Assembly: GCF_000744095.1 (NCBI RefSeq)
Contig: NZ_JQLI01000008.1
Coordinates: forward strand, 2,356,001-2,420,000
DNA length: 64,000 nt
Direction: 5' to 3'
Source of the DNA: Cupriavidus necator A5-1
GTDB taxonomy: Bacteria; Pseudomonadota; Gammaproteobacteria; Burkholderiales; Burkholderiaceae
The notes under the pieces are model-generated. The model had not been told where the DNA came from, ran no database searches, and worked only from the letters and a program-made list of their open reading frames with translations. This document shows positions 4,301-37,170 of this stretch, in pieces (positions within the stretch are counted from its first letter, which is position 1; each line of letters opens with the position of its first letter). A program made the position numbers and the translations under genes.

Positions 4301-4838
4301 CCTGCGGAGGAGAGGGGCGGTGCAATCAGAACCGCCTTCTTGCCACTTCGAATCAAGGTCTCCGACCGGTAGGCCATCACTGTGGCCGACGGGCTGCTAT
4401 GCTGACTCGACCGGGCTGGACAAGTGCTGCAGACGTTGCGTCAGTAGAGAAAATGTCGGTGCGGACTCCTCCGGGCGCAGTTGCTCGTTGATTTGGCCGT
4501 GCAGAAGGAGGGCGCCTCAGCGGCCCGATTCACTGTCAAATTTTATTGAACATTTTGTCAATTTGAATCGGGATTGTATAGCGGTGTTATCCAAGCAAGA
4601 ATGCTAGGCTGACCGCGATGGGACCAGCCCACGCCCGAGGAAGCTTCCGTTTCCTTCGGTCGACCATCAGCGGCGGTGCAATGAGGTCTTCGTCGCCGCT
4701 GCCAACATCCGCGAGTCCGGCACGCCGCATGTAGGGCGTTGCGCTGCAGCAGCCAACCGGCATCGCGTGGCGCCAGCCCGATAGGCTACGATTTTTCACA
4801 GACGGCTCGTGCCTCGAAACAGCCCATGGAGACAAACA
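4301..4838. other. 540-base gap before the CoA-transferase gene
   Basis: No gene is supported here. It contains an AT-rich patch at 4532-4575 in which TGTCAA occurs twice, at 4534-4539 and 4556-4561 (22 bases apart, about two helical turns), with TTGAACA between them at 4546-4552. This could be an operator, but it lies some 280 bases from the next start codon. Confidence 0.35.
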
Positions 4839-6086
4839 ATGCAGACGCCTGACCAATCCCAAGGCATCGACTTCCCGCTTGAGGGCGTGCGCGTACTCGA
4901 CCTGTCGCGTGTGTTTGCGGGACCGCTGTGTGGCCAGGTCCTGGCCGATTTCGGCGCCGACGTGGTCAAGGTGGAACACCCCGGCCGCGGCGACGACACG
5001 CGCGACTGGGGCATGCGCATCGGCAAGACCGAGACGACCTACTACAACAGCATGAACCGCAACAAGCGGTCCATCACGCTGGATCTGCAGAGCAAGGAAG
5101 GCGTGCAGATTGTCTACGACCTGCTGCCGCAGTTCGACGTGGTCATCCACAATTTCAAGACCGGCGGGGCCGAGAAGCTCGGCCTCGGCTACGAACAGCT
5201 CAAGGCCATCAGGCCCGACCTGATCTACTGCGCGGTTTCCGGCTACAACAGCAGCGGCCCCGAGGCCAAGCGTCCCGGCTACGACCTGGTGATCCAGGGA
5301 GAGGCCGGGCTCATGGCGCTCAACGGCGAAGCCGACACGCCGCCGCTGAAGTTCGGCGTGGCGGTGGTGGACCTGATGACCGGCATGTATGCCGCGCAGG
5401 CGGTGCTGGCGGCCCTGTTCCGCCGCGAGCGCAAGGGCAGGGGCCAGCTGATCGAGATGGCGCTGTACGACTGCGGGCTGATGGTCACCGGCTATTACGG
5501 CCTGGACGCCATGCTGCTCGGACGCGACCCCGCACGCTATGGCAATGCCCATCCGTCGATCGTGCCCTATGGCATGTTCGAGGCCGCCGATGGCCCGCTG
5601 ATCATCGCCGTGGGTAACAACAGCCAGTTCGACAAGTTCTGCCGCCAGGTCATCGAGCGTCCGGACATCGTCGAGGACCCGCGCTATGCCACCAATGTGG
5701 AGCGCGCCAGGAACCGCGAGACGTTGACCCCGCTGATCACGGGCCTGATCCGCGGCTTTGCGCGCGACCTGCTGCTGGAGCGCATGACGGCCTGCGGCAT
5801 TCCCTGCGGCAAGGTGGCGGGACTGCACGAGGCCTTGACCAGCGAGCGGACCCGCGAGGGCGGCCTGCTGCGCGAGATGCCCCATCCCGTTGCAGGCAGC
5901 ACGCATGTGTTCGCGCCCCCTTACCGCCTGGATGGCCAGCGCCTGCCGATCCGCAATGCGCCGCCGACGCTGGGCGAGGGCACGCGGGCGGTGCTGCAGA
6001 GCCTGCTGCAGATGAGCGATGACCAGCTGCAGGCACTGCAGGCCCGCGGCGTGCTGACGCTGCCCGAGGCACCGCAGAACGCCTGA
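4839..6086 (+). CDS. class III (CaiB/BaiF) acyl-CoA transferase
   Basis: A 415-residue enzyme of the CaiB/BaiF family, the usual length. These transfer CoA between acyl-CoA and a free carboxylic acid through an aspartyl-CoA thioester. N-terminal hallmarks are VRVLDLSRVFAGP and FGADVVKVEHPGRGD; the likely catalytic aspartate is D178 in VVDLMTG. The ATG at 4839 follows GGAGAC and is preferred over an upstream in-frame start at 4809. The next gene on the strand is a Bug receptor, a frequent pairing in Burkholderiales, suggesting uptake and activation of an organic acid. The substrate cannot be told from sequence. Confidence 0.9.
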   Translation: MQTPDQSQGIDFPLEGVRVLDLSRVFAGPLCGQVLADFGADVVKVEHPGRGDDTRDWGMRIGKTETTYYNSMNRNKRSITLDLQSKEGVQIVYDLLPQFDVVIHNFKTGGAEKLGLGYEQLKAIRPDLIYCAVSGYNSSGPEAKRPGYDLVIQGEAGLMALNGEADTPPLKFGVAVVDLMTGMYAAQAVLAALFRRERKGRGQLIEMALYDCGLMVTGYYGLDAMLLGRDPARYGNAHPSIVPYGMFEAADGPLIIAVGNNSQFDKFCRQVIERPDIVEDPRYATNVERARNRETLTPLITGLIRGFARDLLLERMTACGIPCGKVAGLHEALTSERTREGGLLREMPHPVAGSTHVFAPPYRLDGQRLPIRNAPPTLGEGTRAVLQSLLQMSDDQLQALQARGVLTLPEAPQNA

Positions 6087-6209
6087 GCATTCGCGCCGCG
6101 CGGACGCACATGGACGTCCGCGCAACCCCGCCCGGCAAGGGGGGCCTTGGGTTCCCTTGCACTGATTCAACCTGGAACAACAAACGTGCGCACTCGAAAT
6201 TTCACCCGT

Positions 6210-7187
6210 ATGGTCCACTCCCGGCGTCGTGCCATTCTGGCCCTGGTCGCAGCGCCGCTGCTCGTCGGCAGCGCTTTCGCGCAATCCTGGCCAAGCAAGC
6301 CGATCAAGCTCGTCGTGCCGTTCCCGCCGGGCGGGCCCACGGATACTGCGTCGCGCATCGTCGGCCAGAAGTTGGGCGAGCGCCTCAAGCAGCCGGTGGT
6401 GGTGGAGAACCGCGCCGGTGCATCGGGTTCCATCGCTGCCGCCCAGGTGGCCAAGAGCGCGCCCGACGGCTACACGCTGATGATGCTGGCCACGCCCACA
6501 CTGCTGGCGCCGCACCTGTACAAGAAGGCGGGCTACGACACGACCAAGGACTTCACGCCCGTAGCCACCGTCTATGACCTGCCGATCGTGGTGGTGGTCA
6601 ACCCGACGCTGCTGCCCAACGTGACGGACCTGCCCAAGTTGATCGCACAGGCCAAGGCGCAGCCGGGCAAGCTCAACTACACCAGCTCCGGCGCGGGCAG
6701 CTTCGGCCACCTGAGCATGGAACTGCTCAAGCAGATCGGCGGCTTCGAGATGCAGCATGTGCCCTATAAGGGCGGCGTGCCCGCGATCAGCGACACCATC
6801 GGTGGCCAGGTCCCGATCATGTACGCCGACCTCGTCGCCGCGCTGCCGCACATCCAGGCGGGCAAGCTGCGTGCCATCGCGGTCGGCTCGCCGCAGCGCG
6901 TCCGCATGCTGCCCGACGTCAAGACCATTGCCGAGCAAGGCTTCAAGGGCTACGACGCCGTTTCCTGGGGCGGCCTGCTGGCGCCGCCGGGCACGCCCAA
7001 AGAGGTGGTGGACCGCATCTCTGGCGAAGTCGGCAAGATCCTGGCCGACAAGGAAGTCCAGGACAAATTGCTGAAGGCCGGTGCCATTGCCAACTACCAG
7101 GCGCCGGCGCAGATGGGCCAGCGCATCCAGCAGGACTATGCCAAGTGGGGCAAGGTGATCCGCGACAAAGGCATCGCGGTCGAGTAA
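6210..7187 (+). CDS. Bug/TctC-family periplasmic solute receptor
   Basis: A protein of about 325 residues. The signal peptide MVHSRRRAILALVAAPLLVG ends near FAQ, and the mature part opens with WPSKPIKLVVPFPPGGPTD, the classic TctC/Bug start. Such receptors bind carboxylates such as tricarboxylates, amino acids or aromatic acids, and may serve a TctAB transporter encoded elsewhere or act as orphan sensors. The start is uncertain: the ATG at 6210 gives a good signal peptide but a weak ribosome site, and a GTG at 6186 is an alternative. It follows the CoA-transferase by 123 bases and likely shares its function. Confidence 0.9.
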   Translation: MVHSRRRAILALVAAPLLVGSAFAQSWPSKPIKLVVPFPPGGPTDTASRIVGQKLGERLKQPVVVENRAGASGSIAAAQVAKSAPDGYTLMMLATPTLLAPHLYKKAGYDTTKDFTPVATVYDLPIVVVVNPTLLPNVTDLPKLIAQAKAQPGKLNYTSSGAGSFGHLSMELLKQIGGFEMQHVPYKGGVPAISDTIGGQVPIMYADLVAALPHIQAGKLRAIAVGSPQRVRMLPDVKTIAEQGFKGYDAVSWGGLLAPPGTPKEVVDRISGEVGKILADKEVQDKLLKAGAIANYQAPAQMGQRIQQDYAKWGKVIRDKGIAVE

Positions 7188-7198
7188 GCGCCAGCAAG

Positions 7199-7225
7199 CC
7201 GGGCACGCTGCAACGGCGTGCCCGG
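7199..7225 (+). terminator. stem-loop after the Bug receptor gene
   Basis: A perfect 10-bp inverted repeat (CCGGGCACGC at 7199-7208 and its complement at 7216-7225) with a 7-base loop lies 12 bases after the stop codon. There is no T-run after it, so it may be a Rho-assisted or mRNA-stabilising hairpin. Confidence 0.5.
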
Positions 7226-7319
7226 TGCACACAATCCCGGGGCGGTCAGCGACCCGGCCCGCGCTCCAGGACCTGTCTCCGCTAAAATCGACCAGAAGCG
7301 GTTCCCCAAGGTTAATAGC

Positions 7320-9689
7320 GTGGCACTTCAGCAGGGTTTCATCCTGACCCGACATTGGCGCGATACGCCGGCTGGCACCGAGGTCGAGGTCTGGCTGGCT
7401 ACCGATGATGGGCCACGCCGGCTGCACCTGTCCTGCCAGCCGTCCATTGCGTTTATTCCCGAGGCACAGCGTGAGCGCGCCGAGGCGCTATTGCGCCGCG
7501 AGCGCGATGTCGAGCTGCGCCCGCTCAAGCTTCAGGATTTCCAGCGCAGGCCCGTACTGGGCCTGTACTGCCAGCAGCATCGGCAACTGATCCAGCTCGG
7601 CCGCTCTCTGCGCGACGCCGGCGTGGATGTCTACGAAGCCGATATCCGCCCGCCCGAGCGCTACCTGATGGAGCGCTTCATCACCGCCCCGGTCTGGTTC
7701 GACGGTGAGCCGGATGCCAGCGGCGTCGTGCTGCGCAATGCCCAGATGAAGCCCGCGCAGGACTACCGGCCCACGCTACGCCTGGTCTCGCTCGATATCG
7801 AAACCAACGCGTTCGGCGAACTCTATTCGATTGCCCTCGAAGGCTGCGGTCAGCGCCAGGTCTACATGTTGGGCACGGCGCCGCAGACGCCCACCGAGGT
7901 CGATTTCTCGCTCGAATACTGCGCAACACGGCCCGGGTTGCTGGAAAAGTTGAACCAGTGGCTGGCCGATCACGACCCCGACGCGATTATTGGCTGGAAT
8001 CTGATCCAGTTCGACCTGCGCGTGTTGCACGAGCATGCACGCCAGTTCCAGATTCCGCTGCGCCTCGGCCGGGGCGGTGCCGAAATGGAATGGCGCGAGC
8101 ACAACGCCCAGCAGCACTATTTCGCCAGCGCACCAGGCCGGTTGATCATCGACGGCATCGAGGCGCTGCGTTCCGCCACGTGGAGCTTCCCGTCGTTCAG
8201 CCTCGAATCGGTGGCACAGACGCTGCTGGGCGAAGGCAAGGCGATCGACAACCCGTACGACCGCATGGCCGCCATCGACCGCCTGTTCGAGCAGGACAAG
8301 CCGGCGCTGGCCCGCTATAACCTGCGCGATTGCGAACTGGTAACGCGGATTTTCGAGAAAACCGAGCTGTTGCCATTCCTGCTGGAGCGCGCCACGGTCA
8401 CGGGCCTGCCGGCCGACCGCAGCGGTGGTTCGGTGGCTGCCTTCACGCATCTCTACATGCCGCTGATGCACCGCCAGGGGTATGTAGCGCCCAACCTCGG
8501 CGAGAAGGCACCGGAGGCAAGCCCCGGCGGCTTTGTCATGGATTCGCGGCCGGGGCTGTACGAATCGGTGCTCGTGCTGGACTACAAGAGCCTCTATCCG
8601 TCGATCATCCGTACCTTTCTGATCGACCCGGTCGGCCTGGTCGAGGGTCTGGCGCATCCCGACGATGCCGATTCGGTACCTGGCTTCCGCGGTGCGCGGT
8701 TTTCCAGGACGAAGCACTGCCTGCCGGCGATCGTCGCCAGGGTCTGGCAAGGCCGTGAGGCCGCCAAGCGTGAGCGGAACAAGCCGCTCGCTCAAGCGCT
8801 CAAGATCATCATGAACGCGTTCTACGGCGTGCTCGGGTCCAGCGGTTGCCGGTTCTTCGATCCGCGACTGGCGTCGTCGATCACAATGCGCGGACACGAA
8901 ATCATGCGACAGACCCGGGCGCTGATCGAGGCCCGCGGCTACGAGGTGATCTATGGCGACACGGATTCCACGTTCGTCTGGCTGCGCCGCGCCCGGACGG
9001 AAGCCGATGCGGACCAGATCGGCCGCAGCCTCGTCGCGTACGTCAATGACTGGTGGCGCGACCACCTCTGGCAGACCTATGGCCTGGAAAGCGCGCTCGA
9101 ACTCCAGTTCGAAACCCACTTTCGACGCTTCCTGATGCCGACGATCCGCGGTGCGGACCTCGGCAGCAAGAAACGCTATGCGGGTCAGGTCGAACGGCCG
9201 GATGGCAAGGTCGAGATGGTGTTCAAGGGTCTCGAGACGGTGCGTACGGACTGGTCGCCGCTTGCCCAGCGGTTCCAGCAGACCCTCTACGAGAAAATCT
9301 TCAACCGGGAGCCGTACGAAGATTATGTGAGGGACATCGTGCGTCGCACGCTGGCCGGCGAGCTCGACGAGCAACTGGTTTACCGCAAGCGGCTGCGCCG
9401 CAAGCTCGATGAATACCAGCGCAACGTGCCGCCGCACGTCCGGGCCGCCCGCATCGCCGATGCCTATAACGAGCGCCAGGGGCGCCCGCGCCAGTATCAG
9501 CACGGCGGCTGGATCAGCTATGTGATGACGGTGGCGGGGCCGGAGCCACTCGAAACCCGCGCGGCGCCGATCGACTACAGCCATTACGTCACCAAGCAGC
9601 TCCAGCCGATTGCCGATGCCATTCTGCCGTTCCTGGACGACGATTTCGAAACGCTGTTAACTGGCCAGATGGCGCTGTTCCCGCAATAG
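7320..9689 (+). CDS. polB: DNA polymerase II (family B)
   Basis: A 789-residue family B polymerase that aligns along its whole length with Escherichia coli Pol II, from [12 protein letters not shown] at the N-terminus to the end. Visible motifs are the 3'-5' exonuclease Exo I (SLDIETN, near residue 158), [13 protein letters not shown] (motif A) and YGDTDSTF (motif C, near residue 544). It is a damage-inducible repair and translesion polymerase in E. coli; here no LexA box was identified. The GTG at 7320 is chosen because protein similarity begins there; the 34 extra codons upstream have none. It converges with the HisN-like gene downstream. Confidence 0.96.
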
Positions 9690-9701
9690 CTCGGGCATGG
9701 C

Positions 9702-10493
9702 TCAACCCTGCGCATTCAGCAGCCGCAGAATCTCCTCATGCACGCGAGCATCGCCACTGGCGACCACCGCTCCCCCATGTTGGGGATCGCCGCCCGTCCA
9801 GCTCGTCATGATGCCGCCGGCGCCCTCGATAATCGGGATCAGCGCCTGCACGTCATAGGGTTGTAGTCCCGCTTCGACCACGGCGTCGACATGACCGGCG
9901 GCGACCATGCAATAGCCGTAGCAATCCCCGCCGTATCGCTGCATCCGCGCCGTCCGTGCCACGCGCTGGAAAGCATCCCACTGTTCGCTGGTCTCAAACA
10001 TATCCGGCGTGGTGCAAAGCAGCTTGGCTTGCGCGAGCGCCGGGCAGGGCTGCACCCGTAGTGGTTTGCCATTCAGCCAGGCACGGTTGCCGTCTCCGGA
10101 AAAACGCTCGCGCGTGAAGGGCTGGTCCATGACACCCAGCGCGGGGCGCTGGCCATCGTTCAGTGCAATCAGCGTCCCCCAGAGCGGCAGCCCGGTAATG
10201 AAGGCACGCGTGCCGTCAATGGGATCCAGTACCCAAAAGAACGGATCGGTGCCGGTCATCCTCTGTTCCTCTTCACCAAGTACCCCGTGGGTGGGATAGG
10301 TGCTTCGGATGAGTTCACGCATGGCTCGCTCGGCTTCCCGATCGGCCACGGTGACGGGATCAAAGCGGGTGGCGCCTTTGTTCACCACGTCGACGACCCC
10401 ACGAAAATGGGCGAGTGTCATCGCGCCTGCCACATCGGCCAGGCGGCCGGCAAAGGTGAGATATTCGGCTTGCTCGTCTGGGTGCATAGACAT
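9702..10493 (-). CDS. hisN: histidinol-phosphatase / inositol-monophosphatase family
   Basis: A 263-residue Mg2+-dependent, Li+-sensitive-type phosphatase. Metal-site motifs are GEEEQ and DPIDGTRAF, with the later Asp in YDVQALIPIIEGAGG. The combination of DPIDGTRAFITGLPLWGTLIAL and the C-terminal GG-x-MTSWTGGDP resembles HisN histidinol-phosphatases more than inositol or fructose phosphatases. It is monocistronic, away from any his operon, so the exact substrate is inferred. Two close ATGs (10493 and 10487) are possible; neither has a strong ribosome site. Confidence 0.85.
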   Translation of the reverse strand: MSMHPDEQAEYLTFAGRLADVAGAMTLAHFRGVVDVVNKGATRFDPVTVADREAERAMRELIRSTYPTHGVLGEEEQRMTGTDPFFWVLDPIDGTRAFITGLPLWGTLIALNDGQRPALGVMDQPFTRERFSGDGNRAWLNGKPLRVQPCPALAQAKLLCTTPDMFETSEQWDAFQRVARTARMQRYGGDCYGYCMVAAGHVDAVVEAGLQPYDVQALIPIIEGAGGIMTSWTGGDPQHGGAVVASGDARVHEEILRLLNAQG

Positions 10494-13988: not shown

Positions 13989-15383
13989 TCAATAGATGCC
14001 GGTCAGGTAGTAGAAGGCAATGACGACGAACACCGCCAGCGTCTTGATGCAGGTGACTGCGAAGATGTCGCCATAGGACTGGCGGTGCGTCAGGCCTGTC
14101 ACCGCGAGCAGCGTGATCACGGCGCCGTTGTGCGGCAGGGTATCCATGCCGCCGCTGGCCATCGAGGCGATGCGGTGGAAGACGTCCAGGGGGATGCCGG
14201 CGGCATGCGCCGCGGCGATGAACTGGTCGGACATCGCGGCGAGCGCGATGCTCATGCCGCCGGAGGCCGAGCCGGTGATGCCGGCGAGCGTGGTGACCGT
14301 GATGGCTTCGTTGACCAGCGGGTTTGGAATCGACTTGAGGGCGTCGGCCACCACGAGGAAGCCGGGCAGGCCTGCGATCACCGCGCCGAAGCCATACTCC
14401 GAGGCGGTGTTCATGGAAGCCAGCAACGAGCCGCCGACCGCCGCCTTGGACCCTTCGGCGAACTTCTGGCTGACCGGCTTGAAGGCGAACACCAGCACCG
14501 CGAGGATACCCACCAGCAGCGCGCCCTCGACCGCCCAGATCGCAGCCACCTTGGACACCTCGGTGGTGACGGGTTTGGTAGCGCCGGCGAGCATGAACTC
14601 ATGGGTCTTGCCATAGAATCGCGGGATCAGCTCGGTAAACACCTTGTTCAGCACGCCAACCAGCACGAGCGGCAGGATGGCGATCCAGGGATTGGCCAGC
14701 TTGCCATGCTCGAAGGCCTCGGGCTCGTTGGTATGGCCCTCGCCATAGCCCTCGCCGCCAGCCGCAGCCTGGCGCCGGCGCAAGTTGAGGTAGGTCAGGC
14801 CCACCACCAGGATGAATATCGTCCCGACCACGCCCAGCCAGGGCGCGGCCCAGGTATTGGTATTGAAGAAAGTGGTCGGGATGATGTTCTGGATCTGCGG
14901 CGTCCCCGGCAACGAGTCCATGGTGAAGGTAAAGGCGCCCAGCGCAATGGTGCCGGGTATCAGCCGCTTGGGGATGCCGCCTTGGCGGAACATCTCGGCG
15001 GCGAAGGGATAGACGGCGAACACCACGACGAACAGCGAGACGCCCCCGTAGGTCAGCACCGCGCACACCACCACGATCGACAGCATTGCCCGCTCACGCC
15101 CCACCAGCGCGATCACGGCCGAGACGATGGACTTGGAAAAGCCGGAGAGCTCGATCGTCTTGCCGAATACCGCACCCAGCAGGAAGACCGGAAAGTAAAG
15201 CTTGACGAAGCCGACCATCTTGTCCATGAACACGCTGATGAACATTGGCGGCACCAGGGCCGGGTCGGTCAGCAGCACGGCGCCGAGCGCGGCAACCGGC
15301 GCGAACAGGATCACGCTGAAGCCGCGGTAGGCGACGAACATCAGGAAGAAGAGGGCGGCCACGACGATCAGGAAGCTCACCAC
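13989..15383 (-). CDS. GntP-family permease
   Basis: A 464-residue, highly hydrophobic inner-membrane protein with about 12-14 segments. The GntP hallmarks are the N-terminal [20 protein letters not shown], the [13 protein letters not shown] stretch and the [14 protein letters not shown]-like region near residues 360-380. The family carries gluconate, hydroxybutyrate and other carboxylates in symport with protons. It starts at GTG (15383, followed by a second GTG) behind AAGGAG. It sits in a unit with a CBS-domain protein upstream and a CoA-transferase downstream. A short-chain hydroxyacid or keto acid is a reasonable substrate, but this is inferred from the neighbours. Confidence 0.88.
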
Positions 15384-15465
15384 GATGCTCTCCTTCCAGG
15401 GTGACGGGTGACGGTCTTGATGAAGGTCCTGCCCGACGCCTTGCTGGCGGAGCCGGGCGCTTGCG

Positions 15466-15933
15466 CTAGTAGGAGCCGCCCGTATCGATGGTCATGTTGA
15501 GCATGTCATGCTCGAGATCCTTGATGAAGGACTCGTCCTCCTGGATCAGTTCCTCCAGGACGTCATTGTTGGAGACTACCCCGATCACCCGCTGGGACTC
15601 GATGACCGGCAGGTGCCGGATCCGCTTGGCGTGCATCAGCGCCAGGCATTGCTCGCAGGTGTGGTCGGGCGTGACATAAATCACTTGCGTGGTCATGATG
15701 TCGCGGACCCGGGTGTCGCCTGCCGTGCGGCCGGCCAGCTCGACTTTTCGGGCGTAGTCGCGCTGGGACAGGATGCCGGCGAGGCTGTCGGCCTGCATCA
15801 CGAGTACCGTGCTGACATCCTTGTCAGCCATCAGGCGCAGCGCGGCCAGTACCGAGTCGTCGGGGCTCACGGAGATCAGGTCGCGAGGCTTGTCGGACAA
15901 GAGCTGGCGCGCCGTCTTTCTCGCTTTCTTCAT
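15466..15933 (-). CDS. tandem CBS-domain protein
   Basis: A 155-residue soluble protein made almost entirely of two CBS repeats: one around residues 10-70 (ISVSPDDSVLAALRLMADKDV, GILSQRDYARK) and one around 75-135 (DIMTTQVIYVTPDHTCEQCL, GVVSNNDVLEELI). Paired CBS modules bind adenosine nucleotides and act as energy sensors. It is 83 bases upstream of the GntP permease gene on the same strand, so it may be the first gene of that unit and could tune permease or CoA-transferase use; that link is inferred. Confidence 0.88.
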   Translation of the reverse strand: MKKARKTARQLLSDKPRDLISVSPDDSVLAALRLMADKDVSTVLVMQADSLAGILSQRDYARKVELAGRTAGDTRVRDIMTTQVIYVTPDHTCEQCLALMHAKRIRHLPVIESQRVIGVVSNNDVLEELIQEDESFIKDLEHDMLNMTIDTGGSY

Positions 15934-30178: not shown

Positions 30179-30333
30179 GTTTTTCCTCAAATAGGGATGG
30201 TTGGCGATCAGCCGAAGCGGGAGTTTACACGGAGCGGCAAGCGGGTCCGTCTGTCCGGGAGGCTTCGGCGGACGATCCCCTGACCGATCGCCCCCTGTAG
30301 AATCGGCAGCCACGCAACCCTGGAACGTCCCGC

Positions 30334-31539
30334 ATGGACTCTCACGCCCCGGAGCGCGGCGCGCTGGTGCCGCTGGCCTATCACGCAACGGTGGTCGACT
30401 ACCTGCGTCGCCACGAGCCCGAGGTCTGGCGCTGGGCCGGCGCCCGCGCGACCGGCGCCGATCACCGCGAGGCATTGCGCTCGATGCTGCTGCGCGACAC
30501 CTACCGCATCGAGGCGGACGCGCACGCCGACGTGCACGCGGCGCTGGCCGAGGCGATGACCCGGCTCGGCATCGACGCGCGCGCGACGCTCTACCAGTCC
30601 CCGGGCCAGGACATGAACGCCTCGCTGGTCTACGTGCCCGGCGAGGTCCACATCGTCCTGCAGGGGCCGCTGCTGGAGCGGCTGTCGCCGCCGGAGCTGC
30701 TGGCGGTGTTCGGCCACGAGCTGGCCCACTACCTGCTGTGGTCGCGCGACGACGGCCAGTTCCTGGTGGCCGAGCGCATCCTGAACGACGCCCTGGCCGC
30801 GCCCGGCGCCAGCGCCAGCCATCGCGAGACCTGGCGCCGCTACGCGCTGCACACCGAGCTGTTTGCCGACCGCGGCGGCGCCGTGGCCGCCGGCGCGGTG
30901 GCGCCGGCGGTGTCGACACTGGTCAAGGTGCAGACTGGCATGGGCAGCGTGGACGCGGCCGCCTACCTGCGCCAGGCGGCCGAGATCGAATCCCACGAAG
31001 CGGGCGCGAGCGCCGCCCACAGCCATCCCGAGACCTTCATCCGGGCCCGCGCGCTGGCGCTGTGGTGGGAGGGCGTGCCCGATCTCGATCCGTGGATCGA
31101 AACCCGCCTGCACGGCCCGCTGGCGCTGGAGAAGCTGGACCTGCCGGGGCAGGTCCGGCTGCAGGCGCTGACGCGCGGCTTCCTCGCCCACTTCCTCGCC
31201 GGCACGGCGCTGGCGAGCGAGGCGGTGCGCGCGCAGGTGCGGTTGATGTTCCCCGACTGGCGCGACGACGAACCGGCGATCGGCCCCGAGGGGTTGGGTA
31301 CGGACGTGGCCGACGACAGCGTGCGCGGCTACCTCAACGCGCTGATGATGGACCTGGCGCTCGCCGACCCCGACCAGCAGGACGCGGCGCTGCTGCGCGC
31401 CGGCCAGGTGGCGCAGGCGCTCGGCAGCCTGGAAGCGCTGCAAGGCAACCTGCGCCGCGACGCCGGTTTCGGCAAGCGCGAGCTGGACCGCTACCATCGC
31501 CAACTGCAACGCCAACTGGCCAGGGAGGGCCAGGCATGA
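30334..31539 (+). CDS. M48-type zinc metallopeptidase, partner of the helicase protein
   Basis: A 401-residue protein. The zinc motif is HELAH (H128, E129, H132) in AVFGHELAHYLL and the third ligand is probably E175 in ELFADR, matching the E-x-x-A-D of M48 peptidases. Unlike HtpX or Ste24 there is no membrane helix before or after, so it appears to be a soluble cytoplasmic peptidase with a roughly 200-residue C-terminal helical part. The gene overlaps the next one by four bases (ATGA at 31536-31539), so they are co-translated. The pairing with a large helicase suggests it processes or activates a component of that system; this is inferred. Confidence 0.8.
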   Translation: MDSHAPERGALVPLAYHATVVDYLRRHEPEVWRWAGARATGADHREALRSMLLRDTYRIEADAHADVHAALAEAMTRLGIDARATLYQSPGQDMNASLVYVPGEVHIVLQGPLLERLSPPELLAVFGHELAHYLLWSRDDGQFLVAERILNDALAAPGASASHRETWRRYALHTELFADRGGAVAAGAVAPAVSTLVKVQTGMGSVDAAAYLRQAAEIESHEAGASAAHSHPETFIRARALALWWEGVPDLDPWIETRLHGPLALEKLDLPGQVRLQALTRGFLAHFLAGTALASEAVRAQVRLMFPDWRDDEPAIGPEGLGTDVADDSVRGYLNALMMDLALADPDQQDAALLRAGQVAQALGSLEALQGNLRRDAGFGKRELDRYHRQLQRQLAREGQA

Positions 31540-34500
31540 CTGAGAGCACGACCCACGGCACGAACACGATCCCCGGTACGACCGGCAGCGGCGATCCGCG
31601 CACGCTGCGCGCCCTGATCGATGCGCAGGCGGGCGCGGCGCTGCCCACCGACGACGTCCTGGTGCTGGTGCTGCCGCTGTTCGCGCAGGTCGCCGCGCTG
31701 CACGCGCAGGGCAGGGTGGCCGCGCTCGATCCCGACAGCATCCTGGTGGACGAGGATGGCGCGCTGCGCCTGCGCCGGCCCGATGGCGACGCGCCCGTCA
31801 TGGACATCGGCGCGGTGCATCGCGTGCAGCCGCATCCGGCCTCGGGCCTGAACATCGTCGGCGCGCTGCAGCTTGGCCACGCCGACGACGGACAGCGCGA
31901 CCAGACCGACCTGGCGCTGCAGCTCGAGGCGTCGGCGCCCGTCGAACGCCCGGTCTACCTGCCCGGCCCGGCCAGCTGGGAACGGCTTGTCGGCCACCAC
32001 GACGAGATCGGTGATGTCTTCCTGCTCGGCATGGTGCTCGCGAGCCTGGCCTGCGGCCTGGATTTCACCGACGAGGACGACCTGCGCACTTTCGTGGCGC
32101 ATCGCCGCAACCTGTTCCTGCTGCACGAGCGGTTGCAGCCGATCGTCGCCGCAGTGATCGTCGAGATGACCGAGATCAATCGCCACGACCGCGCGACCGA
32201 TGTCGCCGCGCAGGCGACCCGCCTGCGCACGTGGCGCGAGCAGCCGCTGGGCCTGGACGTGGAGCGTGTGCTGGCCGGCACGGCCGGCGCGACGCCGCGC
32301 CGCGCCGCCGTGCTTACGCACCTGCGCGACCGCCTGTTCGATCTCTCGCGGCGCAACCGCCTGCTGCACTTCCGCCCGGCCGCGGCCAGCGTCAACGTGA
32401 CCGTGGCCAGCGTGCCGCTGATGCTGCAGATCGAAAGCGTGCGGCCCGAGCACATCTGCACCTGGGGCGGACCGTTCGCCGCCGACCTGGTGGCGGGCAA
32501 GCCGGTGTCGCTGCAGCAATGGCTGCGCTTCGACGACCAGCCGTACCTGCCGGCGTCGCTGGACCGCCTGATCGCCGAGACGCGCCGCGACCGCGCCGAA
32601 TACGGCTTCAGCAACCTGCGTCTGGTGGTGGCGTTCCTGCGCTGGCACAACCTGAAGGAGGCGCCGGACGAGCGCATCGTGACGCCGCTGCTGTGGCTGC
32701 CGGTGGAGCTGGTCAAACGCAAGGGCGTGCGCGACCAGTACGTGATCCAGTGCGCGGGCGGCGAGGCCGAGTTCAACCCGGTGCTGCGCCACTACCTGAG
32801 CCAGCTGTACGACATCCGGCTGGACGAGACGGTGGATCTCGGCAAGACCTCGCTCGAGGAGATCCATGCCGGCATCCTCGCGCAGATTCGCCGCTCGGAG
32901 CCCTCGGTGGAGCTGCGCCTGGTCGACAAGGCCGCGGTGCGGCTGGTGCGGCAGAAGGCGCTGCAGCGGATGCAGCAGTTCCAGCGCCGCCGGCCGGGCA
33001 CGGCCGCCGCGCGCACCGGCGGCTGGCTGCCGCCGTACAGCTATGCGCAGGATGACTACCGGCCGCTGGGACGCGCGCTGTTCGAACATTGGGTGCGGCC
33101 GAGCGAGCTGCCGCAACGCTTCGAGGCGGGCGCAGCGCCGGGCGCCGGTCCGCGCCAGCCGCACATGAGCGGCCCCGCCACCGCGGAAAGCGACGAGCGC
33201 CAGGGCTACGTGCTCGAGGAGTCCGAGGGCCACCGCTATGCCTGGGACCTGGACCTGACGCAGGTGACGCTCGCGAACTTCAACTACCGCAAGATGTCGC
33301 TGGTGCGCGACTACGCGCAGTTGCTGGACGAGCCCGGCGCCAATCCGGCGTTCGACCGCGTGTTCTCGATCGATCCGCGCGACGTGGAGACGGAAGCGCC
33401 CGCGCCGCTCGCGCCGCTCGCGCCGGCCGAGCAGTGGAACGTGGTGGCGGCCGACGCGACGCAGAACGCCGCGGTCGGCCTCGCGCGCGGCCAGCGCAGC
33501 TTTATCATCCAGGGCCCGCCGGGCACGGGCAAGTCGCAGACCATCACCAACCTGATCGCCGACTACGCCGGACGCGGCAAGCGAGTGCTGTTCGTCTGCG
33601 AGAAGCGCGCCGCGCTCGACGTGGTGTTCCATCGCCTCAAGCAAAGCGGGCTGGATTCGTTGTGCTGCCTGATCCACGACTCGCAGACCGACAAGAAGGC
33701 CTTCATTGCCGACCTGCGCGCCTGCTACGAGCAGTGGATCGCGCTGCCGCACGACGGCGAGGCGCTGGCGGCGCGCCGCACGCAGGTGGCCGAGGCGCTG
33801 GCCGCGCACCAGCAGCGTATCGACGCGTTCGAGTCGGCGATGGCCGCCGCGCCGGAGGCGCTCGGCGACAGCGTGCGCGCGCTGCTGCGCCGCGTCACCG
33901 CGCTGCCTGAGGTGCCAGATGCGGTGCCAGACGCCGGGCCTGCCATGCGCGAGCGCCTGCCGGCGCTGGCCGCATGGGACCGGCAGCGCGATCTCGCGCA
34001 CCGCGTGCACCGTGCGATGCGCGAGCGCTTCGGTCTGGACAGCCTGGCCGCGCATCCGTTCGCGCGCTTGTCCCCGCAGCTGCTGGCCGACGAGCGCGCA
34101 TATGGCCGCGCCGAGCAGCTTTGCCATGACACCGAGGCGCTGTTCGATGCGCTCGACCCGCTGCTGGACAATACCGCGAGCCTGACCGGCCAGGACACCG
34201 CGCTGGAACAGGCACGCGCGATTGCCGCCGACAGCCAATGGCTGCTCGTCACGGGCCTCGCCGCACATCTGGACCTGCTCGATCCGGGCTCGCCGGCGCA
34301 AGCCGCGCTGCGCGAGGTCCGCGCGGACCTGGAGACACGCGCGCAGGCACTCGCCGACGCCCAAGCCGCAACCTCGAACTGGCAAGACAAGCTGAGCCCC
34401 GGCGATACCGAATCGGCGCTGGCGCTGGCGCGGCGGCTGGAGCCGTCGTTCGCGCGCTGGCTGCAGCCCGCATGGTGGCGACTGCGCGGCGAAATGAAGC

Positions 34501-37091
34501 GCCGCTATGACTTCGGCAAGCACGCCGTCCACCCGGGCTACGGCAAGGTGCTGGAAGCGCTGGCCGCCGAGCACGCCGCGAGCGCGGCGCTGGCGGCGGC
34601 CGATGCCGACAGCCGCCGGCGCTACGGCGTGAGCGAGATGCAGGCCTTCCTGCGCGCGCTCGGTGAACTCGAGCAGCGCCTGCAGTCGGGCGCAGGCCCG
34701 CGCGAGCTGGTCGCGCATCTGCGCCAGGCCGTCGATCCGGTCGCGGCGGCGCGCGCCGAGGCCAGTGGGCGCGAGGCGCTGGAGAAGCTCGCGCAGCGTG
34801 TGCGCGACGGGCTGATGCTGGCACCCGACGCGCGCCTCGGCGACATCGCCGAACTGCTGCGCGACCTGCGCGAGGCGCTGGACGACCTGCCCGACCTGTT
34901 GCCGCTCTTGCGCGCGGTGCATGCGGGCGACCCCGCCTGCGCCGCCACGCTGCAGTGGCTCGATCACGCACCGGCGCAGCTGGAGGCGCTGGTGGCCGAC
35001 GAGGCGCTGCGCCGTCTCGCGCGCGAGAACCCGGTGCTGGCGCGCGTCGGCGGCGCGGCGCTGGCGCAGGCCGCGCGCGCCGTGGCGCAGGGGCAGCGCG
35101 AGCTGCTCGCGCTGAACGCCCAGGTGGTGCGCGCCACGCGGCACAAGCAGTTCGCCGAGCACGTGCGCGTGTCATCGCTGTCGGCCACGATGCTCGACGC
35201 CGGCGGCAAGGCCTTCAAGAAACAATACGCAACGGGCCGCCGTGAACTGGAGCACGAGTTCGGCAAGAGCATGCGCCACCGCTCGATTCGCGATCTCTCC
35301 GACGACGAGACCGGCATCGTTATCAACGATCTGAAGCCAATCTGGCTGATGAGTCCGCTGTCGGTGTCCGACACGCTGCCTCTGTCGCCGGACCTGTTCG
35401 ACGTGGTGATCTTCGACGAGGCCAGCCAGATTCCGACCGAGGAGTCCGTGCCGGCGCTGAGCCGCGCACGCCAGGTGGTGGTGGTCGGCGACGAGATGCA
35501 GCTGCCCCCGACGAGCTTCTTCACGGCCGGCGGCGCCGAGGGCGACGACGAGATCGTCGTGGAAGAGGAGGGCGAGCGCATCGCGATCAACCTCGATTCG
35601 GACAGCCTGCTGAACCAGGCCGCGCGCAACCTGCCCGCCACGCTGCTGGCGTGGCACTACCGCAGCCGTCACGAGTCGCTGATCAGCTTTTCCAACGCCG
35701 CCTTCTACGACGGGCGCCTCGTCACCATTCCCGACCGCGTGCTGGAACAGGCCGAGGACGAGGCCGAGCCGATGCGCTCGGACCAGCAGGATGCCGGCAT
35801 CGCGGGCGCGGACGCGCTGCTGGCGCGGCCGCTCAGCTTCCACCGGCTGGCCGACGGCGTCTACGCGGAGCGCCGCAATGCGCCGGAGGCGAGCTACATC
35901 GCCCGGACCGTGCGCGAACTGCTGCGGCGCGAGACCGGGCTGAGCCTGGGCATCGTGGCGTTTTCCGAGGCACAGCAGGGCGCCATCGAGTCGGCGCTCG
36001 AAGCGCTGGCCGCCGAGGACGCGGACTTCGCGATGCGCCTGGAGCGCGAGTACGTGCGCGAGGACGACGACCAGTTCAACGGGCTGTTCGTCAAGAACCT
36101 GGAGAACGTCCAGGGCGACGAGCGCGACGTGATCATCCTGAGCATCTGCTACGCGCCCGGGCCGGACGGCAAGATGCTGATGAACTTCGGCCCGATCAAC
36201 CAGCGCGGCGGCGAGAAGCGCCTGAACGTGATCTTCAGCCGCGCGCGTCATCGGATGGCGGTGGTATCGACGATCCAGGCCGAGGCGATCACCAACGTCC
36301 ACAACGACGGCGCGGCCGCGCTGCGCGCATTCCTGCAGTTCGCGCAGGCCAGCGCGCGCGGCCAGTTCGAGCGTGCCCAGTCGGTGCTCGGGGCGCTGAC
36401 CCCGGGCGCGCGCGACGCCTTCACGCGCGAGGCCACGCCGGACAGCATCCGTGACGCACTGGCCCAGGCGCTGCGTGCGCGCGGCCACCAGGTGCACGCC
36501 AACGTCGGCCGCTCGCAGTTCCGCTGCGACCTGGCCATCGCCGATCCGTCGGGACAAGGCTACGCGCTGGCGATCCTGCTCGATACGCCGTCCGAGGCGG
36601 TGACGGACACCGCCGAGCGCTATGTGTTCCGCCCCGGCATCCTGCGCAGCTTCGGCTGGCGGGTGCTGGACATCCCCGGCAAGGATTGGCTCGACGATCG
36701 GGAGGCGGTGCTGGCCCGCATCGAGGCCATGCTGGCCGATGGCGAGGATCGCGCGCTGGACGTGGAGGTCGGGATGCCGGCGCCGTTGACGAAGCCGGCG
36801 GCGGTGCAGGGCGCGGCGTCAACGGCTGAGGCATCAACGGAAGCCCGGACGGACGCGGCGACGGCATCGGCTGCGCAAGCGGAGCTGGTGCGTGCGCTGC
36901 GCTTCGAGCAGGGCACGTCGCGCAAGTTCTGGCGTGCCAGCGTGCGCGGGACGGAGCTCTCCGTCACCTACGGCCGCATCGGCAGCGCAGGACAAACCAG
37001 CGTGAAGGCGTTCGACAGCGCCGAGCGGGCCCGGCGCGAGATGGACAAGCTGGTGGCGGAGAAACTGCGCAAGGGCTACGTGGAGGAGTAG
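31536..37091 (+). CDS. 1851-residue pseudokinase-DUF4011-SF1 helicase-REase-like-WGR protein
   Basis: Domains in order: a protein-kinase-like region (about 28-235; LHAQGRVAALDPDSILVDED stands where HRDxKxxN would be, without the catalytic Asp or Asn); DUF4011 (from LRDRLFDLSRRNRLLHF near 262); a UPF1/COG1112-type SF1 helicase with Walker A GPPGTGKSQT (near 658), a long helical insert, FDEASQIPTEE (near 1291), GDEMQLPPT, VQGDERDV (near 1525) and FSRARHRM (near 1564); an REase_MTES_1575-like domain (1632-1738, SQFRCDLAI); and a C-terminal WGR domain (1783-1848, VTYGRIGSAGQT). The architecture suggests a nucleic-acid sensor or motor in genome defence. The ATG at 31536 overlaps the M48 gene stop. 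Confidence 0.85.
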   Translation: MTESTTHGTNTIPGTTGSGDPRTLRALIDAQAGAALPTDDVLVLVLPLFAQVAALHAQGRVAALDPDSILVDEDGALRLRRPDGDAPVMDIGAVHRVQPHPASGLNIVGALQLGHADDGQRDQTDLALQLEASAPVERPVYLPGPASWERLVGHHDEIGDVFLLGMVLASLACGLDFTDEDDLRTFVAHRRNLFLLHERLQPIVAAVIVEMTEINRHDRATDVAAQATRLRTWREQPLGLDVERVLAGTAGATPRRAAVLTHLRDRLFDLSRRNRLLHFRPAAASVNVTVASVPLMLQIESVRPEHICTWGGPFAADLVAGKPVSLQQWLRFDDQPYLPASLDRLIAETRRDRAEYGFSNLRLVVAFLRWHNLKEAPDERIVTPLLWLPVELVKRKGVRDQYVIQCAGGEAEFNPVLRHYLSQLYDIRLDETVDLGKTSLEEIHAGILAQIRRSEPSVELRLVDKAAVRLVRQKALQRMQQFQRRRPGTAAARTGGWLPPYSYAQDDYRPLGRALFEHWVRPSELPQRFEAGAAPGAGPRQPHMSGPATAESDERQGYVLEESEGHRYAWDLDLTQVTLANFNYRKMSLVRDYAQLLDEPGANPAFDRVFSIDPRDVETEAPAPLAPLAPAEQWNVVAADATQNAAVGLARGQRSFIIQGPPGTGKSQTITNLIADYAGRGKRVLFVCEKRAALDVVFHRLKQSGLDSLCCLIHDSQTDKKAFIADLRACYEQWIALPHDGEALAARRTQVAEALAAHQQRIDAFESAMAAAPEALGDSVRALLRRVTALPEVPDAVPDAGPAMRERLPALAAWDRQRDLAHRVHRAMRERFGLDSLAAHPFARLSPQLLADERAYGRAEQLCHDTEALFDALDPLLDNTASLTGQDTALEQARAIAADSQWLLVTGLAAHLDLLDPGSPAQAALREVRADLETRAQALADAQAATSNWQDKLSPGDTESALALARRLEPSFARWLQPAWWRLRGEMKRRYDFGKHAVHPGYGKVLEALAAEHAASAALAAADADSRRRYGVSEMQAFLRALGELEQRLQSGAGPRELVAHLRQAVDPVAAARAEASGREALEKLAQRVRDGLMLAPDARLGDIAELLRDLREALDDLPDLLPLLRAVHAGDPACAATLQWLDHAPAQLEALVADEALRRLARENPVLARVGGAALAQAARAVAQGQRELLALNAQVVRATRHKQFAEHVRVSSLSATMLDAGGKAFKKQYATGRRELEHEFGKSMRHRSIRDLSDDETGIVINDLKPIWLMSPLSVSDTLPLSPDLFDVVIFDEASQIPTEESVPALSRARQVVVVGDEMQLPPTSFFTAGGAEGDDEIVVEEEGERIAINLDSDSLLNQAARNLPATLLAWHYRSRHESLISFSNAAFYDGRLVTIPDRVLEQAEDEAEPMRSDQQDAGIAGADALLARPLSFHRLADGVYAERRNAPEASYIARTVRELLRRETGLSLGIVAFSEAQQGAIESALEALAAEDADFAMRLEREYVREDDDQFNGLFVKNLENVQGDERDVIILSICYAPGPDGKMLMNFGPINQRGGEKRLNVIFSRARHRMAVVSTIQAEAITNVHNDGAAALRAFLQFAQASARGQFERAQSVLGALTPGARDAFTREATPDSIRDALAQALRARGHQVHANVGRSQFRCDLAIADPSGQGYALAILLDTPSEAVTDTAERYVFRPGILRSFGWRVLDIPGKDWLDDREAVLARIEAMLADGEDRALDVEVGMPAPLTKPAAVQGAASTAEASTEARTDAATASAAQAELVRALRFEQGTSRKFWRASVRGTELSVTYGRIGSAGQTSVKAFDSAERARREMDKLVAEKLRKGYVEE

Positions 37092-37095
37092 CCCC
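37074..37095 (+). repeat. 22-base hairpin repeat, copy 1
   Basis: The last codons and stop of the helicase gene form a small hairpin, GGCTAC-GTGGAGGA-GTAGCC plus CC. The same 22 bases recur exactly at 56648-56669. In this copy the stem extends by one more G-C pair. Confidence 0.75.
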
Positions 37096-37170
37096 TGGAC
37101 AGGGCGGCCACATCCCGCCTGGAGCAGGGGCGCGGCGGCCGCGCCACGACCTCTCTTCACAGCTTCCTCA

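Follow-up and report, generated by a model that had tools for sequence, protein, structure and literature searches.

A zinc metallopeptidase gene coupled to a DUF4011 helicase gene in Cupriavidus necator: a candidate protease-helicase module, most likely directed against invading DNA

The peptidase gene and the helicase gene

The window, by which we mean the whole 64,000-nucleotide stretch of Cupriavidus necator A5-1 DNA analysed here, carries two adjoining genes on its plus strand, where all features given below also lie. The first (30334..31539) encodes a 401-aa M48-type zinc metallopeptidase recognised by Pfam Peptidase_M48, and the second (31536..37091), delimited by its open reading frame and Pfam matches, encodes a multidomain helicase of 1851 aa. 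The reading frames overlap in an ATGA (31536..31539) that joins the peptidase stop to the helicase start. A preliminary description of the locus had given both genes and the overlap at these positions, and we find them so; the domains that it proposed (M48, DUF4011, an SF1 helicase, an REase-like domain and WGR) likewise stand, the Pfam families Peptidase_M48, DUF4011, AAA_11, AAA_12, MTES_1575 and WGR each scoring over the curated cut-off.

The upstream product reaches 37.9 bits against Peptidase_M48 (cut-off 20.3). Its HELAH zinc-binding and catalytic motif occupies residues 128-132 (30715..30729), and, by analogy with other M48 peptidases, Glu175 (30856..30858) is presumably the third zinc ligand. 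In an alignment of 76 peptidases, comprising 75 related loci and the window and omitting five loci with incomplete M48 matches, H128, E129, H132, E175, D179 and H231 are each present in 76/76. The predicted model (pLDDT 94.6) has 3c37_B as its best VIA match (Z 9.8, rmsd 4.3, 167 aligned), and further matches include BepA (6ait_A, Z 9.6), Ste24 and ZMPSTE24; Foldseek gave nothing at E<=0.001, with BepA in the top row at 0.015. The fold, the HExxH motif and the downstream Glu that characterise M48 are thus all present. The C-terminal part, from about residue 270 to 401, has solely low-Z helical matches in VIA. Behind the M48 domain we suspect a TerB-like helical domain: it scores 21.5 and 16.7, under the Pfam cut-off of 24.4, in two of the fused proteins described below, and Pfam reports none in the window peptidase.

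The large protein opens with a region, approximately residues 21-250 (31596..32285), that was identified from its structure model and PDB matches; no kinase family appears among the Pfam matches of the protein. The AlphaFold2 model of residues 1-258 (mean pLDDT 87.5) matches 62 PDB chains at E<=0.001, of which the best 50 are all protein kinases, headed by PknB (E 1.3e-5), and in VIA it aligns for example with 6b2p (Z 15.4, rmsd 2.6 over 149 residues). The kinase-like fold suggested in the preliminary description is therefore borne out by the model. Because the HRD loop position is variable among 76 helicase sequences and no DFG motif is visible by eye in the alignment, we regard this predicted kinase fold as a pseudokinase that lacks the catalytic residues.

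There follow DUF4011 at residues 266-421 (32331..32798; 53.5 bits, cut-off 22.2, E 3.6e-14) and a UPF1-type SF1 helicase motor, with the Walker A motif GPPGTGKS at residues 660-667 (33513..33536) and its second half at residues 1228-1610 (35217..36365), with AAA_11 at 66.4 and AAA_12 at 57.6 bits (cut-off 27). The Walker A motif and the segments D1294-Q1298 and Q1526-D1531 are conserved in all 76 helicases aligned, five loci with short helicase frames having been omitted. Next comes an MTES_1575 REase fold (36456..36731; 54.2 bits, cut-off 38.2, E 1.6e-14), in which the catalytic Glu is replaced, and finally a WGR domain at residues 1792-1850 (36909..37085; 60 bits, cut-off 22, E 2.5e-16). The WGR region is filled in 62/76 helicases and missing in the other 14 (L101, L102 and 12 Variovorax loci, all from Schauerella, Achromobacter and Variovorax), so the domain is dispensable. 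One GC-poor relative, L042, has its helicase in two overlapping frames (4688-8218 and 8136-10352), which is either a frame break or a real split gene.

Pairing, fusion and loss of the nuclease glutamate

To compare loci we searched named genomes with a helicase-only alignment, which returned 98 relatives, and kept 80 loci. The preliminary description had allowed that helicase homologues might mostly occur without the peptidase; instead, 80/80 kept loci, spread over Pseudomonadota, Verrucomicrobiota and Bacteroidota, have an M48 gene immediately upstream and in the same orientation, although in a few of them this gene is broken or cut by a contig end. The three rows of the search alignment all came from M48-linked helicases, so that 80/80 describes an M48-linked clade and not DUF4011 helicases in general. 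Based on reading-frame coordinates, the genes meet in a 4-nt overlap in 57/80 loci (ATGA in 55, GTGA in two), in a larger overlap in 15/80 and across a gap in 8/80; two of the eight gapped loci (L106 and L142) have a truncated or broken helicase frame. Helicase or peptidase frames are in pieces in Cupriavidus sp. UYMMa02A (L142), Pseudomonas sp. KNUC1026 (L135) and Massilia glaciei (L152), through either decay or assembly errors.

Among 60 genomes (the window's own, 35 more of the genus and 24 of the order), full-length helicase and peptidase co-occur in the same nine, all Cupriavidus and including the window genome, with the peptidase of G002 in two pieces on two contigs. Copies within the genus are 92-97% identical, and this co-occurrence therefore counts for little as evidence. 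A class-wide peptidase search matched 13/274 genomes: two hold the two-gene pair (G000, the window genome, and G060), two hold a fusion (G299 and G179), and the other nine hold stand-alone M48 proteins with no adjoining helicase in the gene lists, as judged by eye. A phylum-wide profile search matched 4/398 genomes, in all of which the two parts are linked, as pairs in G000, G624 and G689 and as a fusion in G504.

In three other genomes (loci L043, L048 and L076) M48 and helicase are joined in one polypeptide, of 1953, 1896 and 2073 aa, respectively. The fused parts are M48, a DUF4011-type domain, helicase and REase, as assigned by Pfam for L043 and L048 and by BLAST and PADLOC for L076. Pfam reports no WGR in L043 or L048, and no kinase-like region is seen in the fusions at the sequence level. 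Searches for further fused copies found one among 390 genomes and one among 20, each being the centre genome itself. Directly 3' of the fused gene in L048, the one neighbour scanned there is a DUF5655 protein (14619-15491; 29.4 bits, cut-off 24) with no PADLOC match.

That the two genes are accidental neighbours has nothing in its favour beyond adjacency. Retention of the pair in 80/80 related loci exceeds what chance would give and, together with the fusions, refutes that explanation, to which we attach a practically negligible probability. The pairing is real and old, and the proposal that the genes form a unit is upheld by an order and strand that are fixed across phyla. The unit is widely spread and has been overlooked.

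The REase-like domain named in the preliminary description survives as a fold, confirmed by Pfam, but its catalytic Glu is missing. L1681 (36576-36578) occupies the place of that residue in the window, and the Glu of the ExD motif is replaced by L, V, M or Q in 76/76 M48-linked sequences. Asp1683, after the lost Glu, is kept in 76/76 and the upstream Asp1665 in 73/76. In a joint alignment the Glu is missing from 12/12 M48-linked rows and kept in 17/17 rows without M48, where it is followed in every case by an aromatic-His pair (YH or FH). These 17 more distant relatives are all the other matches, at E<=1e-60, obtained when 274 genomes were searched with the ProA profile, and in the fetched stretches around them, some on short contigs, M48 is absent in 17/17 at E 0.01. 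The window helicase thus departs from the ExD catalytic motif of the PDC-S37, ProA and Hhe nucleases.

With the Glu lost, an active nuclease is not to be assumed. The kept REase fold and its two conserved Asp residues would be expected of an ordinary restriction-type nuclease-helicase system that cuts via a shifted active site and has the peptidase as an accessory. We consider that arrangement improbable, because the Glu is gone from every M48-linked sequence and retained, with its aromatic-His partner, in every relative without M48. Judging from the conserved residues, in the M48-linked clade the nuclease is probably dead and the protease alive, and the protease may have become the effector in place of the nuclease.

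A careful, unrooted tree of 33 helicases places 18 pair rows in one clade (98/96) and the three fusions in their own clade (100/100), with pairs and fusions together opposite 12 rows without M48 (99/99). On this tree the loss of the Glu is one event, so its link to M48 amounts to a single correlation. Five rows (L166 and L171-L174) were left out. An earlier quick tree of 68 rows that included those five did not recover pairs and fusions as one group, the fusions being grouped with L171, which, like one other row, is very long. L042, from the window's class, nests among Verrucomicrobiota and Bacteroidota copies.

The peptidase could also be a regulator that trims, activates or removes the helicase, with the helicase alone blocking invading DNA by unwinding it or displacing proteins. 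Invariant coupling would fit such a role, and with the REase Glu lost, the helicase itself could be an effector that does not cut DNA. The natural fusions, however, put the peptidase in cis, which is needless for a one-time processing protease, and this arrangement seems to us rather unlikely.

Known relatives, mobility and neighbours

The window helicase is most similar in PADLOC to the candidate system PDC-S37 (PDLC05009; 691 bits), with which it shares a DUF4011-SF1 helicase-REase chassis; the best stretch, residues 567-1780, covers positions 215-1380 of the 1550-position profile. A near full-length PDC-S37 match, L163 (profile 5-1532 of 1550, 1675 bits), keeps its REase motif intact and lacks a flanking M48. 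In NCBIfam the same helicase-REase core brings the window protein to 699.5 bits against the anti-phage model ProA (NF058533), below the equivalog cut-off of 1500. Five ProA members over the cut-off (L062 and L159-L162) carry an intact ECDG..YH and have no M48 in their fetched flanks. By eye, the N-terminal ~350 residues of these five look transglutaminase-like, a Cys-peptidase fold, and may represent a second peptidase-type partner of these helicases, independent of M48; the open-licence literature did not reveal where the name ProA comes from. Against Hhe (NF042953), a DUF4011 helicase whose REase we take to be Vsr-like, the window protein scores 463.5 bits, below the equivalog cut-off of 2000. 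Hhe was reportedly first presented as a DUF4011-helicase-Vsr defence gene. In the Hhe-like L167 the nuclease motif is intact, and M48 is missing. The nearest NCBIfam models are named anti-phage, and the nearest PADLOC model is a candidate.

The window genome, 9.74 Mb in size, also holds a second DUF4011 helicase, of PDC-S37/Hhe type and with its nuclease motif intact (G000:C1:1039973-1045903; L169 6902-13210; 1279 bits for PDC-S37 and 1014 for Hhe); the 19.5 kb fetched for this locus contains no M48 gene.

The kinship with Mokosh drawn in the preliminary description did not hold. Mokosh combines a COG1112-type helicase with a kinase-like domain, as the window does, but MkoA and MkoC match only in part and at 111 and 66 bits, and Pfam finds no PLD family in either window protein at E<=0.1, with M48 there instead; a Mokosh variant is thereby ruled out. 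The preliminary description knew of no M48 peptidase paired with such a helicase, and in the open-licence literature we likewise found no description of one. A comparable case, by description only, is the RRDM island of EPEC, where a predicted peptidase of the M48 family lies next to defence genes, its neighbours being DarTG and a type I RM system and not a DUF4011 helicase (PMC12255303). A defence hotspot of P. aeruginosa also has a DUF4011 gene as a core flank (PMC10250203).

The pair has moved as a unit. According to blastn alignments with Cupriavidus copies from other contexts, the transferable unit spans 30291..37109, a leader of ~42 bp and the two genes. Homology with the window runs over 30293-37095 in L056, 30291-37109 in L060 and 30291-37104 in L061, from 41-43 bp before the peptidase start to 4-18 bp past the helicase stop, and these bounds define a minimal unit of two genes, 6.8 kb in size. 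Seven other Cupriavidus copies, compared with the window, occupy at least four chromosomal contexts: that of the window, L055 and L059; that of L056; that of L060 and L061; and those of L057 and L058, which have just a 303-nt piece in common besides the unit. An upstream gene of penicillin-binding type (named by eye) has an orthologue of at least 79% identity in 14/40 genus genomes, and only in G000, G035 and G017 does the pair follow it within 2 kb; in G003, G019 and G030 the two are far apart or on other contigs. In genomes with this upstream gene and no pair (L175-L178), similarity to the window stops near the end of that gene. A divergent glycine-zipper gene (29696 to ~30230, minus strand), whose product by eye starts like a signal peptide, is for the most part included in the homology with L055, L057, L058 and L059, of which L057 and L058 are in other contexts.

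Searches for a mobile vehicle found no close copy of the unit. Plasmids gave 325 helicase records, all below 60% identity and none covering 80%, and no window peptidase; phages gave a single helicase match, both distant and partial (33% across 28% of the protein), and no peptidase; viral contigs held no copy; and the fused M48 part matched nothing in plasmids or phages. At the unit ends only short GC-rich 10-mers are repeated, and relative to its flanks the unit has a median GC of +2.9 points, so it is not GC-poor.

Association with defence islands, a check raised in the preliminary description, is seen for a fused copy and at few two-gene loci. For 44 of the 80 loci we scanned the two closest genes on either flank, using crude gene calls and dropping products longer than 1300 aa, which left 170 proteins. 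At E<=1e-10, six or seven of the 170 match PADLOC (one of 85, a marginal capH, and five or six of the other 85), raw counts to be read with no random baseline. A re-scan of ten neighbours named a PtuA-like ATPase (L104), DolB/PDC-M37B (L121), a UvrD/GajB/RTasHel-type helicase (L134) and SWIM_XIII (L156); the matches beyond these fall in two families with one member each. Some of the matched neighbours, such as the UvrD-type helicase, are probably ordinary genes, and two-gene copies lie mostly outside defence islands. The SWIM_XIII-type protein (L156 17413-19038, PADLOC 2e-143) is two genes downstream of a Verrucomicrobiota pair. The fused L076, in turn, sits between Gabija (GajA 2.1e-185, GajB 3.5e-182) and AbiE (AbiEi 2.3e-108, AbiEii 1.7e-110), all within 16 kb (L076 2476-18674), on a 114.7-kb contig that, as the smaller of two in its assembly, is perhaps a plasmid. 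At L077 a SIR2 protein, PDC-S65 (7.3e-211), lies ~1 kb upstream.

The main rival to a defence role is genome maintenance, in which the pair would repair DNA-protein crosslinks or clear stalled proteins, the helicase moving and the M48 peptidase degrading, by a logic like that of SPRTN and Wss1. WGR domains are found in DNA-damage proteins, and the peptidase has a weak SprT-like Pfam match (E 0.0027, under the cut-off) and a weak Foldseek row with the DPC-repair protease 6mdw (E 2.3). The scarcity of defence neighbours agrees with this role, as do stable loci: loci of Variovorax and of some Sphingomonadales have neighbours in common, and the Variovorax locus adjoins dnaE-like and PBP2-like genes (named by eye). 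Counter to this, the distribution is patchy (9/60 genomes, in the genus only, and 4/398 in the phylum), the unit has relocated between contexts and phyla, the helicase relatives are named anti-phage and a fused copy lies inside a defence island. SOS regulation was also rejected, as LexA-type boxes, searched as patterns such as CTGTN8ACAG, are not enriched in 74 upstream regions at up to one mismatch: CTGTN8ACAG occurs in one against 3.2 expected, GTTCN7GTTC in three against 4.5, GAACN7GAAC in five against 7.8 and a Xanthomonas-type pattern in none. At two mismatches the alpha-type GTTCN7GTTC, in 54 of 74 against 40.7 expected, is the sole excess. On balance we think genome maintenance unlikely, while it deserves serious attention.

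A helicase that may command a protease

Looking across the entire analysis, we favour, tentatively and with somewhat less than even confidence, a two-component protease-helicase module that most likely acts against invaders (phage or foreign DNA) and derives from DUF4011 helicase-nucleases of the PDC-S37/ProA/Hhe kind. Arguing for it are the M48 gene upstream in every kept locus, the fusions, the intact protease and motor residues alongside the lost REase Glu, the one-sided placement in the tree, the patchy spread over three phyla, the relocation as a unit, the anti-phage names of the relatives and the contexts of L076 and L077. A defence role is likely by descent and from the fused copy between Gabija and AbiE. 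This reading is weakened by the few defence neighbours, the stable Variovorax and Sphingomonadales loci, a GC content that is not poor, the missing close copies on plasmids and phages, and a Glu loss that is a single event.

Under the anti-invader reading, the two proteins would form a physical complex in which the large protein scans DNA through its helicase motor, its catalytically degraded REase fold and, where present, its WGR domain, while the pseudokinase/DUF4011 front end keeps the peptidase inactive. The trigger may be abnormal DNA, such as replicating phage DNA or broken or protein-bound ends. ATP-driven movement would then alter the contact with the front end and release the M48 peptidase, which would cut a phage or host protein. 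A precedent for such a mechanism is Hachiman HamAB, in which a sensor helicase restrains its effector (PMC12278908). The likeness is one of logic only, and the effector there is a nuclease.

We know of helicase-based defences mostly as systems that end in DNA cutting. It is possible, and we put this forward with more reserve, that here a zinc protease is under the command of a helicase that surveys DNA: a lineage of helicase-nucleases would have lost its nuclease when it was tied to M48, turning the sensing of foreign DNA into the cutting of protein and constituting an undescribed class of immunity. If this is true, the loss of a nuclease motif and the fixation of an intact protease beside the helicase, or fused to it, would represent an effector switch from nucleic acid to protein. 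Should the unit turn out to serve crosslink repair, it would be a protease-helicase repair module carried horizontally, which would likewise be of interest. At 6.8 kb the unit is compact enough for cloning and testing. The presence in many unrelated bacteria of the same compact unit, with a zinc protease gene overlapping that of a giant helicase in whose nuclease part the key active-site residue is lost, suggests a little-known immune-like system that cuts proteins, not DNA.
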